DNA of 52,587 nt from Rhodoferax sp. OV413 (GTDB lineage Bacteria; Pseudomonadota; Gammaproteobacteria; Pseudomonadales; Pseudohongiellaceae), in the NCBI GenBank assembly GCA_943330915.2, contig CALQJO020000015.1, positions 1 to 52,587 on the forward strand, written 5' to 3'. Positions 11 to 34,119 of this stretch are shown piece after piece; position 1 is the stretch's first letter, and every line of letters begins with the position of its first letter. The translations under genes were made by a program, and so were the position numbers. The notes under the pieces are model-generated. The model had not been told where the DNA came from. It searched no databases and worked only from the letters and a program-made list of their open reading frames with translations.

Positions 11-91
11 GGCCTGCGGCGGGGCGATCTGCGTCGAGGAACAATCAGAGGCGCAGCCTCGTTCCGAGACCCAGTCGCCCTGGTGCAGGCC
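11..91 (+). repeat. Structured intergenic element, copy A
   Basis: Most diverged copy of the hairpin element described at 8156-8238. The outer arms GGCCTGC (11-17) and GCAGGCC (85-91) pair; a second helix GGAAC/GTTCC encloses the unpaired AATCA block, and the tip is GAGGC-GCA-GCCTC. The 5' internal-loop block reads GTCGA instead of AGAGCGA, and the 3' block GAGACC instead of GAGGAA. It lies 50 bases beyond the stop codon of the acylase gene, so again at a gene 3' end. A further GC-rich inverted repeat, CCGGGG (90-95) with CCCCGG (111-116), follows. Any partner copy would lie left of the window. Confidence 0.75.
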
Positions 92-140
92 GGGGAACTC
101 CGGCACTGCACCCCGGGGCAGCCAATGTGCAAATAAAAAA

Positions 141-7986: not shown

Positions 7987-8155
7987 GCAAAACTCCGTGA
8001 TGTTGCGGTTATCAGAACCAGGCGACATCATAATCCTTTGCCAGAACTTTGTTGAGAAAAGCTTGGATCTTGCTGAAAAAATGATGGCAATTCAGAGGGG
8101 TACGCAATCAGTCAAACGCAGCGCAGTAAAGGAAGCACCTGGTTTAGAAGTCGGG

Positions 8156-8238
8156 CGCATCACGGAGAGCGGGAGGAGAGCGAAGGACAATCAGACGCGA
8201 AGCGTCGTCCTGAGGAACCTCCCGCTCTCCGTGATGCG
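8156..8238 (+). repeat. Structured intergenic element, copy B1
   Basis: Best-formed copy. Perfectly complementary 21-base arms (8156-8176 and 8218-8238; up to about 27 pairs if G-T/G-U pairs are allowed) enclose a core: unpaired AGAGCGA, helix AGGAC/GTCCT, unpaired AATCA on the 5' side only, terminal helix GACGC/GCGTC closed by a GAA triloop, then unpaired GAGGAA. It lies between the DUF1501 stop and the DUF885 start, both minus strand. The inverted partner B2 is 73 bases away. Confidence 0.9.
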
Positions 8239-8311
8239 TCTGACCTACAGTCAAAGCACTGTTTGATGCACTGCGTTTTGAAGTCAGGCACATCACTGGC
8301 TACGGTAACGT

Positions 8312-8390
8312 CAGAGCAGAAGGCGGGAGCTTCCTCGCAACGACGCTACGCGTCTGATTGTTGCTCGCTCTCCTCTCGCCTCCTGCTCTG
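8312..8390 (-). repeat. Structured intergenic element, copy B2
   Basis: Same element in opposite orientation to B1. Read on the minus strand: 18-base outer arms (8373-8390 with 8312-8329, two mismatches), AGAGCGA, helix GCAAC/GTTGC, AATCA, terminal helix GACGC-GTA-GCGTC, GAGGAA. The middle helix differs from B1 at two positions on each side and still pairs fully. It ends 18 bases from the DUF1501 stop codon. The 421-base gap 7988-8408 holds only this pair of elements. Confidence 0.9.
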
Positions 8391-8408
8391 CCTTTATGAC
8401 AATTGCCA

Positions 8409-9593
8409 TCAAGAAACGCGGAATCCACTCATCGGCATCCCCGGGAACACCAGATCACGCAACAGCTGACCATTAAAACCCATGTGAGATTGCAGGATTT
8501 CAGCAATCAGGCTGCGCAGATCATTGGTTGGCTGCAGATCACGGCCTTCACGCAGATTGCCCTCGCTCAGACCCGGCCACGGCCCCAGCACCGCTGGCCG
8601 CGATCCATATTTAGTCAGTCCGCCACCGGCCAGGAAAGCCACACCTGCCGTGCCATGATCGGTACCCAGAGTGCCGTTAACCCGCACTGTCCTGCCAAAC
8701 TCGGTCATCACCACCACAACGGTGTTCTGCCAGGTAGTACCCAGGGCAGTTTTAAGGCGAGTGATGCTGTTATCCAGCTCTGTGAATTTTCTGGGCAGGG
8801 TGCCTTGTGCACCGCCCTGATTGACATGGGTATCCCAGCCATTATTTTCCAGTACCACAATGTTGGGGCCACCCGGGGCTTTGAGGAAATTCCCTGCCGC
8901 ATCAATGAGGGCGGTAAATCCCGTGGCTCTGCTCTTGCTCATGCCAGCGCTGACAATCGCCTTGGCATCAATCGCTTCCTGCAGTCGAGGTCCAAGAAAA
9001 CTGTCGTCGCTATACAGACCCTGCAGGCGCGTAAGCGTGTCTTCATTCAATGCGGGCAACACCGACGGGGCCCAAGAACCAACGATGGCCTGACCCCTCA
9101 GGATCAGCGGTACTGATTGTCCCAGCGCCATCGCCTGTTGATGGCTTTGCGCCTGCAGCGCACGATTCAGCCAACCGGAGGCATTAGGCCTGGCCATTTC
9201 CAGTCCGCTTTCCAGCACATTCTGGCCATCAAAGTGAGATCGTTCCCGGTAAGCGCTGGCGATGGCATGCACAATACTCAGTTCGCCGGCCTTCTGTAAT
9301 TGAAATAGACCGGGAAATGCAGGATGCAACGCAAAAAAATTATCAAGCTTGAGCAGGGTTTCATCCGCGGGAACCAGCGCTGCCCGGTGAGTGCGCAGGG
9401 CTGCATCGCCATATGGAATCACGGCAGCGAGGCCGTCCATCGCACCGCGCAAGATAATCACCGCTAGCTTGTTGTTGCCGGAGATAACACTGTTGGCCCA
9501 ACTGAGACCCGGCAGGCTGCCGGCCGCTGCCAGGAGAGCTGCGGACTGGATAAACTGCCGACGGTTGATACGACTATTGTGTTGGTGTGTCAT
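8409..9593 (-). CDS. DUF1501 family Tat-exported protein
   Basis: 394-residue DUF1501 protein (PF07394), sulfatase/alkaline-phosphatase-like fold by family knowledge, function not established. The N terminus has a twin-arginine signal (NRRQFIQSAALLAAAGSLPG), so export is folded through Tat. Later blocks VVVMTEFGRTVRVNGTLGTD and DHGTAGVAFLAGGG are the family's typical metal-site-like region. GGAGGG precedes the ATG by seven bases within the end of the DUF1800 gene; the two genes are one base apart, the conserved DUF1800-DUF1501 order, so they surely form an operon and probably act together in the periplasm or at the surface. Confidence 0.92.
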   Translation of the reverse strand: MTHQHNSRINRRQFIQSAALLAAAGSLPGLSWANSVISGNNKLAVIILRGAMDGLAAVIPYGDAALRTHRAALVPADETLLKLDNFFALHPAFPGLFQLQKAGELSIVHAIASAYRERSHFDGQNVLESGLEMARPNASGWLNRALQAQSHQQAMALGQSVPLILRGQAIVGSWAPSVLPALNEDTLTRLQGLYSDDSFLGPRLQEAIDAKAIVSAGMSKSRATGFTALIDAAGNFLKAPGGPNIVVLENNGWDTHVNQGGAQGTLPRKFTELDNSITRLKTALGTTWQNTVVVVMTEFGRTVRVNGTLGTDHGTAGVAFLAGGGLTKYGSRPAVLGPWPGLSEGNLREGRDLQPTNDLRSLIAEILQSHMGFNGQLLRDLVFPGMPMSGFRVS

Positions 9594-12192: not shown

Positions 12193-12293
12193 GCTGGAGA
12201 ACGCCCACCGGCAGCCGGGATGTTCCTCGGCACGGCGCTACGCGCCTGATTGTGCCTCGCTCTCATCCCGGCCACCGGTGGGCTGGTGCCAGC
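12193..12293 (-). repeat. Structured intergenic element, copy C1
   Basis: Minus-strand orientation. Outer stem is interrupted: GCTGG, then GCCCACCGG, then CCGGGATG pair with their complements up to 12293. Core on the minus strand: AGAGCGA, helix GGCAC/GTGCC, AATCA, terminal helix GGCGC-GTA-GCGCC, GAGGAA. Begins one base after the acetyltransferase stop codon. Forms a divergent pair with C2, 35 bases away. Confidence 0.88.
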
Positions 12294-12328
12294 GATTGAG
12301 CAGTACTGCAGCTCAAAAGTGGCGCTGA

Positions 12329-12411
12329 GGCCAGTCAAGTGCCGGGGCATGAGCGAAGAACAATCAGGCGCGTAGCGCCGTTCTGAGGAATGCCCCGGCA
12401 CTTGACTGGCC
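12329..12411 (+). repeat. Structured intergenic element, copy C2
   Basis: Perfect 21-base arms (12329-12349 and 12391-12411) with a sequence unlike those of B1 or D2 except near the core. Core: TGAGCGA, helix AGAAC/GTTCT, AATCA, terminal helix GGCGC-GTA-GCGCC, GAGGAA. It lies 41 bases from the rhodanese stop codon, in a convergent gene gap. Confidence 0.9.
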
Positions 12412-12452
12412 GTAACACCTTTTAAAAATGCGTAAGCTTCAAGCCCGGCTGA

Positions 12453-32076: not shown

Positions 32077-33831
32077 ATGAAAATCCATGACAACAAAATG
32101 ATTTACGTGTTTGCGCTTGGTTTGCTGGCAGCCGCCTGCAGCGATCCGGCGACAACCCCGGCCGACCCGGCAGCAGTATCCACGGCAACTTCAGCAGCTC
32201 CATCCGCAACAGATGCCGCCTGTCAGGACGCTGATCTGGTTCTGCACAACACCACCATTTACACCGCCAATGACGCCCAGTGGACAGCCGAAGCTGTCGC
32301 GGCGCTTGACGGTCGTATTGTGTTTGTCGGCAGCAATGCCGATGCCGCCGCTTATATGTGTGGTGATGCACAAATTATGGATATGGCCGGAAATACGGTG
32401 TACGCCGGTTTTGCAGACAGCCATCAGCACCTGGAAGGTGTAGGTCGCCGTACCAAAACGCTCAGTCTGTTTGGCATCCCCACGCTGCAAGGCACGGTGG
32501 ACAGAATTGAAGAATGGGCTGCAACTATTCCGGAAGGTGAGTGGATTCAGGGTCGTGGCTGGATCGAGCGCGAGTGGACCGATGAACAGCGCTTTCTGAA
32601 CAAAGCCGACGTGGATGCGTTCTCCCAAAACAAACCTTTGTATATGCCCCGTGCGGATGGCGTCTCAGCGCTGGTGAATTCCAAAGCGCTGGAACTGGCA
32701 GGTGTGACACGTGAAACGCCCGACCCCGAAGGCGGCCGATTTGAGCGGGACATTGATGGTAACCCCACCGGTTATGTGCTCGCCAACGCCATGAATGTAT
32801 TCCGCGACATTCTGCCGCCGGAAACCGATGAGTATCTCAAAGACAATCTGCTGCGTGGCATGCAGGCCAATGCCTCCATGGGATGGACGCAAACACACGA
32901 CGCTGGTATGTCCTTGCGGCTGGTTGATCTACTCAAAGAGCTGCACGCCGAAGGCGAGATGGCGCATCGGGTGTATGCCGCCGTGCCAATTGCAGAAGCC
33001 AACGAGTTTATCCGCCGTGGCCGCGAAAAGACCGACGACGATATGTTTGATGTGCGGGGTATCAAGGTTTTTATTGACGGCACCCTTGGCTCTCGCGGCG
33101 CAGCCTTGATCGAAAACTATTCTGATGCCGACCATAACGGATTTATGAACCGCACCACCAAAGAAGAGCTGGTGCCGGTGTTGCACGCCTCCCTGCAACA
33201 GGGTTTCCAGATCATGACCCACGTGATTGGTGACCGCGCCGTGCGCACACTGCTGGACTGGTATCAGGAGGCGTGGGATGCCGTGCCACAGGATCAGTGG
33301 ATCAGCACCGATCTGCGCTGGCGCATGGAACACGCACAGATTATTCCGCCCAGTGACCAGCAACGGTTTGTGACCATGAATGTGTTGCCGTCCATGCAGC
33401 CCAGCCACGGCATTGGCGACCTCAACTTCGCGCCGGATCGTCTGGGCGCTGACCGATTGGGTTACGCCTACCCCTGGCAGCAGCTGGTGGATCGCGGGCT
33501 GATGATACTGGGTGGCTCGGATGCGCCGGTGGAAGTGGGTGATCCGCGCATCGAGTTTTATGCTGCTATTGAGCGCAAACGTCTGGACGGCACCGATGGC
33601 GCGGGCTGGCATCCGGAGCTGGCGGTGTCACGTGAATCAGCGCTGAAGATGTTCACCATCTGGGCGGCGCACGGGTCTTTCCAGGAAAACCTGCGCGGCT
33701 CTGTTGAAGTAGGCAAATATGCCGATTTCAGTATCTTCAACCGCGACTTTATGACGGTGGCACCGCAGGACATCCTGACGTCTGAAAACGTGATGACGAT
33801 TGTGGGTGGTGAGATTACTTACCGCAGATGA
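32077..33831 (+). CDS. Amidohydrolase family 3 (YtcJ-like) lipoprotein
   Basis: 584 residues, metal-dependent amidohydrolase superfamily. AGGAAA lies eight bases before the ATG at 32077, which opens a lipoprotein signal with lipobox LAAAC (Cys19), followed by an Ala/Pro/Thr-rich linker. Family blocks: GNTVYAGFADSHQHLEGVG with the H-x-H metal site, IKVFIDGTLGSRGAALIENY, MTHVIGDRA, RMEHAQII, and LGGSDAPVEVGDPRIEFYAA with the metal-ligand Asp. YtcJ-like enzymes have no proven natural substrate; amide or carbamate bond hydrolysis is expected. Two structured repeats follow the stop. Confidence 0.9.
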   Translation: MKIHDNKMIYVFALGLLAAACSDPATTPADPAAVSTATSAAPSATDAACQDADLVLHNTTIYTANDAQWTAEAVAALDGRIVFVGSNADAAAYMCGDAQIMDMAGNTVYAGFADSHQHLEGVGRRTKTLSLFGIPTLQGTVDRIEEWAATIPEGEWIQGRGWIEREWTDEQRFLNKADVDAFSQNKPLYMPRADGVSALVNSKALELAGVTRETPDPEGGRFERDIDGNPTGYVLANAMNVFRDILPPETDEYLKDNLLRGMQANASMGWTQTHDAGMSLRLVDLLKELHAEGEMAHRVYAAVPIAEANEFIRRGREKTDDDMFDVRGIKVFIDGTLGSRGAALIENYSDADHNGFMNRTTKEELVPVLHASLQQGFQIMTHVIGDRAVRTLLDWYQEAWDAVPQDQWISTDLRWRMEHAQIIPPSDQQRFVTMNVLPSMQPSHGIGDLNFAPDRLGADRLGYAYPWQQLVDRGLMILGGSDAPVEVGDPRIEFYAAIERKRLDGTDGAGWHPELAVSRESALKMFTIWAAHGSFQENLRGSVEVGKYADFSIFNRDFMTVAPQDILTSENVMTIVGGEITYRR

Positions 33832-33892: not shown

Positions 33893-33977
33893 GAGCGCAA
33901 CGAACAGCGGGAGGTTCCTCAGGACGACGCTGCGCGTCTTATTGTCCTTCGCTCTCCTCCCGCTATCCGTTGCGCTC
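33893..33977 (-). repeat. Structured intergenic element, copy D1
   Basis: 22-base arms (33893-33914 and 33956-33977) with two mismatches. Core on the minus strand: AGAGCGA, helix AGGAC/GTCCT, AATAA (A for C at the fourth position), terminal helix GACGC-GCA-GCGTC, GAGGAA. Just upstream (33843-33860) lies a partial duplicate of the outer arm, GCTCAGCGGACAGCGGGA, without a core. Confidence 0.9.
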
Positions 33978-34034: not shown

Positions 34035-34119
34035 GAGCGCAGTGGACGCTGGGAGGAGAGCGAGCAACAATAAGGCGCAGAGCGCCGTTGCGAGGAACCT
34101 CCCAGCGGCCACTGAGCTC
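34035..34119 (+). repeat. Structured intergenic element, copy D2
   Basis: 22-base arms (34035-34056 and 34098-34119) with two mismatches. Core: AGAGCGA, helix GCAAC/GTTGC, AATAA, terminal helix GGCGC-AGA-GCGCC (the only copy without a GNA triloop), GAGGAA. The end of the right arm, CACTGAGCTC, is repeated directly at 34124-34133. Divergent pair with D1, 57 bases apart. The 354-base gap 33832-34185 is otherwise empty apart from the matrixin ribosome-binding site (AGGA nine bases before its ATG). Confidence 0.9.

Follow-up and report, generated by a model that had tools for sequence, protein, structure and literature searches.

The recurrence of one hairpin between the genes of a single bacterial contig raises the question of whether its fold is maintained by selection and, if so, in which molecule and for what kind of element. 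The original prediction, made from the letters of the window (i.e., the whole 52,587-nt stretch of DNA analyzed here), described seven copies of a structured intergenic element whose variable helices covary around conserved parts, and read this as the signature of a fold under selection, either in RNA or in single-stranded DNA, belonging to an unfamiliar family. Sequence and covariance-model matches retrieved all seven copies where they had been placed (table 1), the model, which was built on 11 ungapped copies of the own genome, scoring six of them at 87–102 bits and the copy at 12–92 at 51.6. The unit is a hairpin of ~80 letters, composed of a stem of ~20 bp (19–25 bp in 63 of 84 copies), an internal loop, a five-pair middle helix, a one-sided AATMA bulge, a terminal helix of five pairs (six in some copies), and a triloop. 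The five middle helices that had been listed (GGAAC, AGGAC, GCAAC, GGCAC, and AGAAC) each face their exact complement, as do the terminal helices GAGGC, GACGC, and GGCGC. The claim of one architecture common to the seven copies stands for six of them and falls for the copy at 12–92, whose different internal loop, CTGCGTCGA/GAGACCCAG, is seen again in other contigs and species. Copy 5 carries TGAGCGA in place of AGAGCGA, and its T lengthens the stem. As hairpins, copies 2, 3, 4, 5, and 7 span 8157–8237, 8311–8391, 12203–12283, 12330–12410, and 34037–34117, respectively.

Table 1. Positions of the window copies and loci of the related features.
Feature	Position or locus	Strand	Description	Covariance-model score (bits)
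Copy 1	12–92	+	Variant type B, internal loop CTGCGTCGA/GAGACCCAG	51.6
Copy 2	8157–8239	+	Type A hairpin	101.9
Copy 2 core	8184–8211		AGGAC-AATCA-GACGC-GAA-GCGTC-GTCCT	
Copy 3	8309–8391	−	Type A hairpin	87.4
Copy 4	12201–12283	−	Type A hairpin; (−,+) pair with copy 5	100.6
Copy 5	12330–12412	+	Type A hairpin, TGAGCGA form	97.6
Copy 6	33893–33975	−	Type A hairpin, 3′ of the stop codon of 32077–33831	98.5
Copy 7	34037–34119	+	Type A hairpin; (−,+) pair with copy 6	93.2
65-nt forms (G009, G007)	L055 (=L093 7482), L056, L064, L093 10326			
RAYT-associated palindromes	L137–L142, L144; regions L161, L162, L164, L166, L168			
~330–345-aa Y1_Tnp-domain protein	L146–L148, L152–L154, L157			

That the fold is selected is supported by several controls. 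A pattern search of the own genome tolerating up to 3 mismatches returned 15 matches, the 15th of which (3 mismatches) is doubtful, against 0 with the reversed pattern. Pairing in the 11 own-genome copies extends to 97.0% of 330 cells (71.5% after shuffling), double changes are found in 22 of 30 pairs, and covariation reaches 0.732, against 0.205 when shuffled and at most 0.159 when the partner is slid; none of 500 shuffles attained the pairing, double-change, or covariation value. An alignment of 34 non-redundant copies from six genomes, restricted to copies with GAGCGA and the 28-nt core, behaves likewise, with 95.5% of 1,054 cells paired (66.2% shuffled), 318 double-change cells (96.1 shuffled), and a covariation of 0.760 (0.193 shuffled, at most 0.142 with a slid partner), while further pair types, one measure of five, amounted to 69 against 62.2 and were matched by 7 of 500 shuffles. 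Helix changes are accordingly paired more often than expected under both the shuffle and the slide controls, and covariation is strong. As for the unfamiliarity of the family, Rfam gave 0 matches at gathering threshold over the whole window, and a search of 8100–8450 at E up to 10 returned 16 sub-threshold matches, the best at 32.8 bits when 71 are required.

The constant core is where the prediction needs amending, since the conserved parts are unpaired in general, with the exception of the GA/GA beside the middle helix, which is probably a tandem G.A pair rather than an open loop. The sheared G–A pairing that had been proposed as possible is in keeping with the GA that flanks each side of the middle helix in 91 of 95 core matches (exceptions L079, L080, L086, and L100), obtained with a pattern without loop requirement after removal of three further matches as off-target, and with a first middle-helix pair that is purine–pyrimidine in 112 of 113 copies although no pattern required this. 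Among 105 copies with a stem, the internal loop reads GAGCGA/GAGGA in 88, CGTCGA/GAGAC in 11, and as near variants in 6, in a list whose underlying pattern already assumes most of CGA/GAG. A consistent reading of the most constant part of this loop would be a C25–G58 pair followed by a G26.A57/A27.G56 tandem (CGAR...YGAG), and PyGAPu, a term absent from the literature matches listed, is the rule for tandem G.A in DNA. The bulge is AATCA in 75 of 113 copies and AATAAA in 22, the remainder taking other forms. The triloop is C-GNA-G in 88 of 112 copies (GCA 52, GAA 21, GTA 13, and GGA 2, the middle base thus taking all four letters) and GNA in 57 of 76 once related arms are merged, it being understood that several pattern-based copy sets assume the core, that the triloop set also assumes most of CGA/GAG, and that orthologous copies inflate the triloop, loop/bulge, gene-context, and close-pair counts. 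Extraordinary stability is described for DNA hairpins that combine a GNA loop with two or more G–C pairs (PMC4686876). Nearest-neighbor thermodynamics in ViennaRNA did not separate GNA from other triloops, and the DNA argument from triloops therefore rests on the literature. Some forms depart from this architecture: a 65-nt version in G009 keeps GAGCGA/GAGGAA and has a short GGGTGTACCC tip in place of the bulged terminal hairpin, a match in G007 has the same length, and at L079 (5693 and 8901) and L086 (9048) the bulged terminal hairpin is kept with a paired sequence instead of the GAGCGA/GAGGAA loop.

Whether the fold matters on the duplex or on one strand can be read from the mismatches in the stem, because upkeep at the level of the duplex predicts G.T and A.C in equal numbers, each becoming the other on the opposite strand. 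In 84 copies, the element strand shows 54 G.T against 15 A.C cells, mismatches of other kinds being similarly frequent (58 cells), and the asymmetry persists after merging of related copies (47 vs. 15 events, P = 6e-5). The excess of G.T is found in both orientations relative to the nearest facing gene end (antisense 27 vs. 11, sense 18 vs. 4), and is weaker in the set retrieved with the core-only pattern (24 vs. 11, P = 0.04; 49 of 53 copies used, the stem filter having removed the 4 poorly paired ones). Orthologous sites point in the same direction: in 565 pair comparisons with related arms, 461 are unchanged, 40 are double Watson–Crick changes, 23 are single changes to G.T, 1 is a change to A.C, 32 are other single changes, and 8 are other double changes, with the proviso that these come from 29 of 99 orthologue comparisons (same orientation, related arms) and that genome pairs share sites and are not independent. 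In 64 of the 99 the arms differ, many of these comparisons setting a hairpin against its orthologue's partner. From the preponderance of G.T over A.C together with the orthologue changes, one strand appears to be folded and the fold appears to matter. When the nearest gene end facing the element lies within 200 nt, this strand is antisense to it in 54 of 74 cases (55 of 83 when distances up to 1,000 nt are admitted), so that selection is unlikely to act on the mRNA of that gene. Local GC skew revealed no replication-strand bias, being positive for 33 of 72 element strands.

The element lies preferentially 3′ of genes. With a simple hexamer gene caller, 37 of 84 copies with a stem have convergent neighbors, 41 co-directional ones, and 1 divergent ones, 5 being at contig ends; in the larger loci, which were chosen for containing elements and are hence not a random sample, among gaps of at least 100 nt an element is present in 19 of the 36 between convergent genes, 28 of the 129 between co-directional ones, and 1 of the 64 between divergent ones. 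The core is found at most 60 nt from a facing stop codon in 40 of 83 copies, which means that the stem starts ~10–33 nt past the stop. When two full copies are close, they are oriented (−,+) in 12 of 13 pairs (8 of 9 when distinct sites are counted), the sole (+,−) pair being formed by window copies 2 and 3 (8157/8311). All 7 of the small second cores located 37–67 nt from a full copy lie 3′ of it and share its orientation. At the stem foot, the 5′ side is A in 70% and the 3′ side G in 56% of 84 copies, and the 5′ flank contains TGGCAC in 13 of 77 non-redundant copies (the commonest 6-mer reaching at most 8 in 100 shuffles), a feature of a subset. Tandem arrays, in which the core and right arm are repeated with a period of ~66–75 nt, were also observed at L119:7801–7966 (same site as L066) and L115:3532–3640.

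The covariance-model search of related genomes, called for in the original prediction, yielded 24 matches in the own genome at E up to 0.1, and matches in 11 of 56 genomes (own included), every one of them among the 15 of genus Pseudohongiella, with at most 33 matches in any one genome. Of the 137 genomes of the family, 13 match, the 11 of the genus (out of 15) being joined by 2 of the 122 others, which belong to a single sister genus; in a sample of the order, searched with strict filters and few candidates scored per genome, such that weak matches would be lost, 4 of 390 genomes match, all in the genus. The exact core pattern was found in 43 stretches, all assigned to Pseudohongiella or more broadly to Gammaproteobacteria, across 84,980 species genomes, a collection that may omit records very close to the window's genome. 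Viral contigs gave 0 exact pattern matches, and plasmids gave no match to one 131-base query. Among the genomes searched, the element is a lineage-specific family limited almost wholly to marine Pseudohongiella (Gammaproteobacteria). No description of such an element was found among the matches listed for the open-access literature on Pseudohongiella repeats and related repeat families, and this family of ~80-letter hairpins is apparently new to the literature.

From a mobility perspective, dispersal is visible in the sister genus, where four of the eight matches in G103 were compared and are nearly identical, two of them lying 419 nt apart. The near-identical stretch starts at the base of one arm and runs some six letters past the other, the farther flanks being mostly unrelated, and this ending of similarity near the hairpin points to the hairpin itself as the repeat unit; upstream of three of the four copies, a short AATTCAAC.TCGAT stretch is nonetheless common. 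Within Pseudohongiella genomes, the median nearest-arm identity is 0.64, with one pair at 0.90, and arms being mostly dissimilar within a genome, recent copying is not seen there. Sites turn over between genomes. At the copy 2 site, the core has opposite orientations inside the same arms in G000 and G004. The 12203/12330 locus shows the same pair in G001, an inverted pair in G006, no second hairpin (copy 5) in G004, truncated remains in G005 and G002, and a RAYT-type palindrome instead in G014. Where both flanks are at least 88% identical, the arms are related (0.88–1.0) in 7 of 10 comparisons and different (0.45–0.60) in 3. Two of the latter stem from a single locus of G002 and G005, one from each of its hairpins, and flanks 92–97% identical there surround largely different nested palindromes. 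Outer nested palindromes occur around some elements. At L092 9649 (=L047 107–187), L128 7681, and L077 10022, the arms appear by eye to be doubled around one core, as if the element had inserted into its own copy.

Several known systems offer points of comparison. REP and REPIN sequences with their RAYT transposases are, like the element, intergenic, palindromic, arranged in inverted pairs, and lineage-specific. In REPs, only one folded strand is reported to be recognized, conserved bulges mattering in some groups (PMC8266576), and REPs inserted within longer palindromes are on record (PMC3733652). The element shares with GTAG-REPs its intergenic, gene-3′ location and its inverted dimers. It differs from REPs in its size (~80 nt, against 20–40), in having conserved internal letters and free stem letters, in having no GTAG/CGTC tag at the foot and no flanking transposase gene among those examined, and in not exceeding 33 matches per genome. 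Indeed, in none of 77 non-redundant copies do the 10 nt preceding the stem contain GTAG, and the 10 nt following it contain CTAC, the same tag on the other strand, in 9 of 77. CGTC-tagged REPs are described with CGTC/TGTC at the foot, a stem of 8–9 bp, and a loop of 4–5 nt (PMC3733652), whereas the element has a triloop and a longer stem, and CGTC lies 10 nt or less from its foot in 1 of 77 copies on the 5′ side and 2 of 77 on the 3′ side.

The attC sites of integrons combine a sequence-variable stem with conserved unpaired features, and their R box is GTTRRRY. The element resembles them in these two respects and in having one folded strand, attC being reported as a folded single DNA strand read by its structure (PMC6393395), and departs from them in lacking a nearby integrase (six cases) and a cassette array, in its inverted pairs, and in its core, alignment columns 51–57 of which read mostly GT, three variable letters, and GA, with no GTTRRRY. 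The GGGGACGGAG... palindromes that flank RAYT genes of this genus are likewise long, with variable outer arms, located at gene ends, and sometimes nested with or adjacent to the element; unlike it, they have no loop/bulge core and flank a Y1 transposase gene. The mitochondrial double-hairpin elements of fungi and algae are small, have been proposed to be mobile, and show compensated stem changes, but they are organellar and of another architecture. Membership of the element in the GTAG-REPs, the CGTC-REPs, attC, an Rfam family, or the intrinsic terminators was rejected on the tag, the transposase, the integrase, the score, and the U tract.

If a protein reads the element, the Y1 transposases of the genus come to mind. 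Y1_Tnp proteins are present in all 15 genus genomes, and a RAYT of ~240 aa is present in 9 of 11 carriers of the element and 0 of 4 non-carriers (Fisher P = 0.011, kinship not being corrected for); the carriers without it are G005 and G013, and the RAYT of G009 is short and divergent. The 24 loci of ~3 kb around Y1_Tnp genes gave 0 covariance-model matches, the nearest case observed being an element ~6–7 kb away, in G001 and G002. Long palindromes, nearly perfect and variable in their outer arms (GGGGACGGAG...CTCCGTCCCC or GGGGTCGGAG...), lie near the gene of the ~240-aa Y1 RAYT, and because its flanks bear this different palindrome, the genus RAYT was not accepted as cognate of the element; a Y1 RAYT transposase is thus a candidate partner only. 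A second Y1_Tnp-domain protein, of ~330–345 aa, occurs in all 15 genus genomes (in one of them cut by a contig end), and the HUH motif of the copies printed, QYHLL or QYHLV, suggests that it may be a domesticated, inactive relative.

The asymmetry between G.T and A.C, the GNA triloops, the flip of the core, and the dispersal in the sister genus, all read from sequence, lead us to prefer single-stranded DNA to RNA as the acting form, and to regard a mobile REP-like element as likelier than an RNA gene. On this basis, we consider it probable, at roughly 0.6, that the element is a REP-like mobile element recognized as one folded DNA strand through its conserved core. One strand would become single-stranded, at a replication fork or in a cruciform, and then fold; a protein would read its non-Watson–Crick features (the G.A pairs, the bulge, and the GNA loop), the stem being needed merely as a stem; and the element would be mobile or recombinogenic, now or until recently, perhaps by a transposition-like mechanism, and tolerated mainly 3′ of genes. 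Such recognition would free the letters of the stem while requiring their pairing on one strand, and would therefore give rise to covariation without sequence conservation. TnpA-REP, the IS200/IS605 transposases, and the integron integrases read their hairpins in this way. Against a mobile REP-like element speak the fact that the element flanks none of the transposase genes examined, the scarcity of close copies within Pseudohongiella genomes, the two carriers (G005 and G013) devoid of the RAYT, and the lack of a defined target duplication, and the maintenance of stems in orthologues also fits a resident host function. Tentatively, one may even conceive of a DNA element defined by its shape and not its sequence, a mobile or recombinogenic hairpin whose 20-bp arms would be rewritten as matched pairs at fixed chromosomal sites and whose small non-Watson–Crick core would be read on one strand by a protein; if true, this would be a third structure-read single-stranded DNA system alongside attC/IntI and REP/TnpA.

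These readings have to be weighed against others. A structured RNA, in which the element strand would be transcribed (as a small RNA or a longer transcript), fold, and bind a protein, the duplication of copies being secondary, would agree with the strong covariation, with the maintenance of the element in orthologues, and with a conserved internal loop bearing a tandem G.A, a motif common in RNA; moreover, the tolerance of G.T (G.U) on one strand is compatible with RNA as well as DNA. It is nonetheless unlikely, as there is no Rfam match, read-through from genes would mostly carry the other strand, some (−,+) pairs are ~46 nt apart (12284–12329), leaving scant space for a promoter each, GNA triloops are a motif of DNA stability, and the core takes both orientations within the same arms in close relatives. 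It also seems quite improbable that the fold is not selected at all, long chance-inserted palindromes staying complementary by mutation as one arm templates the repair of the other (quasipalindrome correction, template switching). Arm-to-arm copying on a duplex is strand-symmetric, yet G.T and A.C stand at 47 versus 15 (or 24 vs. 11), and neither the constancy of the loop, bulge, and triloop nor the position 3′ of genes nor the inverted pairing is explained by it. In favor of such mutational upkeep, 92.4% of arm cells (1,553/1,680) are Watson–Crick though the arms of different copies are mostly dissimilar, outer nested palindromes exist, and arms appear doubled around one core in L047, L128, and L077; quasipalindrome-type correction may thus contribute to arm turnover.

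We regard it as very improbable that the copies are attC-like sites of an integron-type tyrosine recombinase read on one folded strand, even if the logic is the same (variable stem, extrahelical bases, and one folded strand) and an integron integrase above the 265-bit cut-off is found in 4 of the 15 genus genomes (G002:C9, G003:C11, G009:C1, and G013:C12). Elsewhere (G001:C1, G007:C1, G014:C5, and G005:C510), the best integrase-like stretches contain stop codons or are in pieces, and the rich carriers G000, G004, and G006 have best scores of 44, 44, and 86 bits, below the cut-off. In addition, the 91 kb around six intI-like genes or remnants contain 0 matches to the element, the copies of which are single or in inverted pairs among ordinary-looking chromosomal genes, with no cassette arrays. 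Just as improbable are ordinary hairpins at gene 3′ ends, with a role in terminating transcription or in stabilizing the 3′ end of the mRNA. They would suit the proximity of the core to a facing stop codon in 40 of 83 copies, but hardly the rest of the evidence: there is no U tract on either side (over the 30 nt that follow the stem, the T fraction never exceeds 0.27 at any position, and on the opposite strand the first flank position alone stands out in composition), most stem mismatches in the sense of the neighboring mRNA would be A.C, the kind that is not tolerated, and the conserved internal loop and bulge would not be accounted for.

Examples of natural DNA motifs known to be recognized by fold rather than by sequence are few. 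Here, a shape kept while most of its paired letters change suggests recognition of the fold of one strand, not of its sequence, and tens of copies in several genomes, mostly with their own stem sequences, amount to an experiment in covariation, performed by nature, on the structure of single-stranded DNA. This suggests that sequence-based repeat searches can miss a REP-like population, because mainly the fold is conserved.

An autonomous parent with a hairpin at each end was also considered and rejected, the longer (−)...(+) intervals in L079, L080, L084, and L091 containing ordinary-looking genes as judged by eye from ORF translations. At L080:6150–6395, between two type B hairpins, a small ORF with a double-glycine-like leader (LTCEEIEQVSGG) adjoins an ABC-transporter-like gene.
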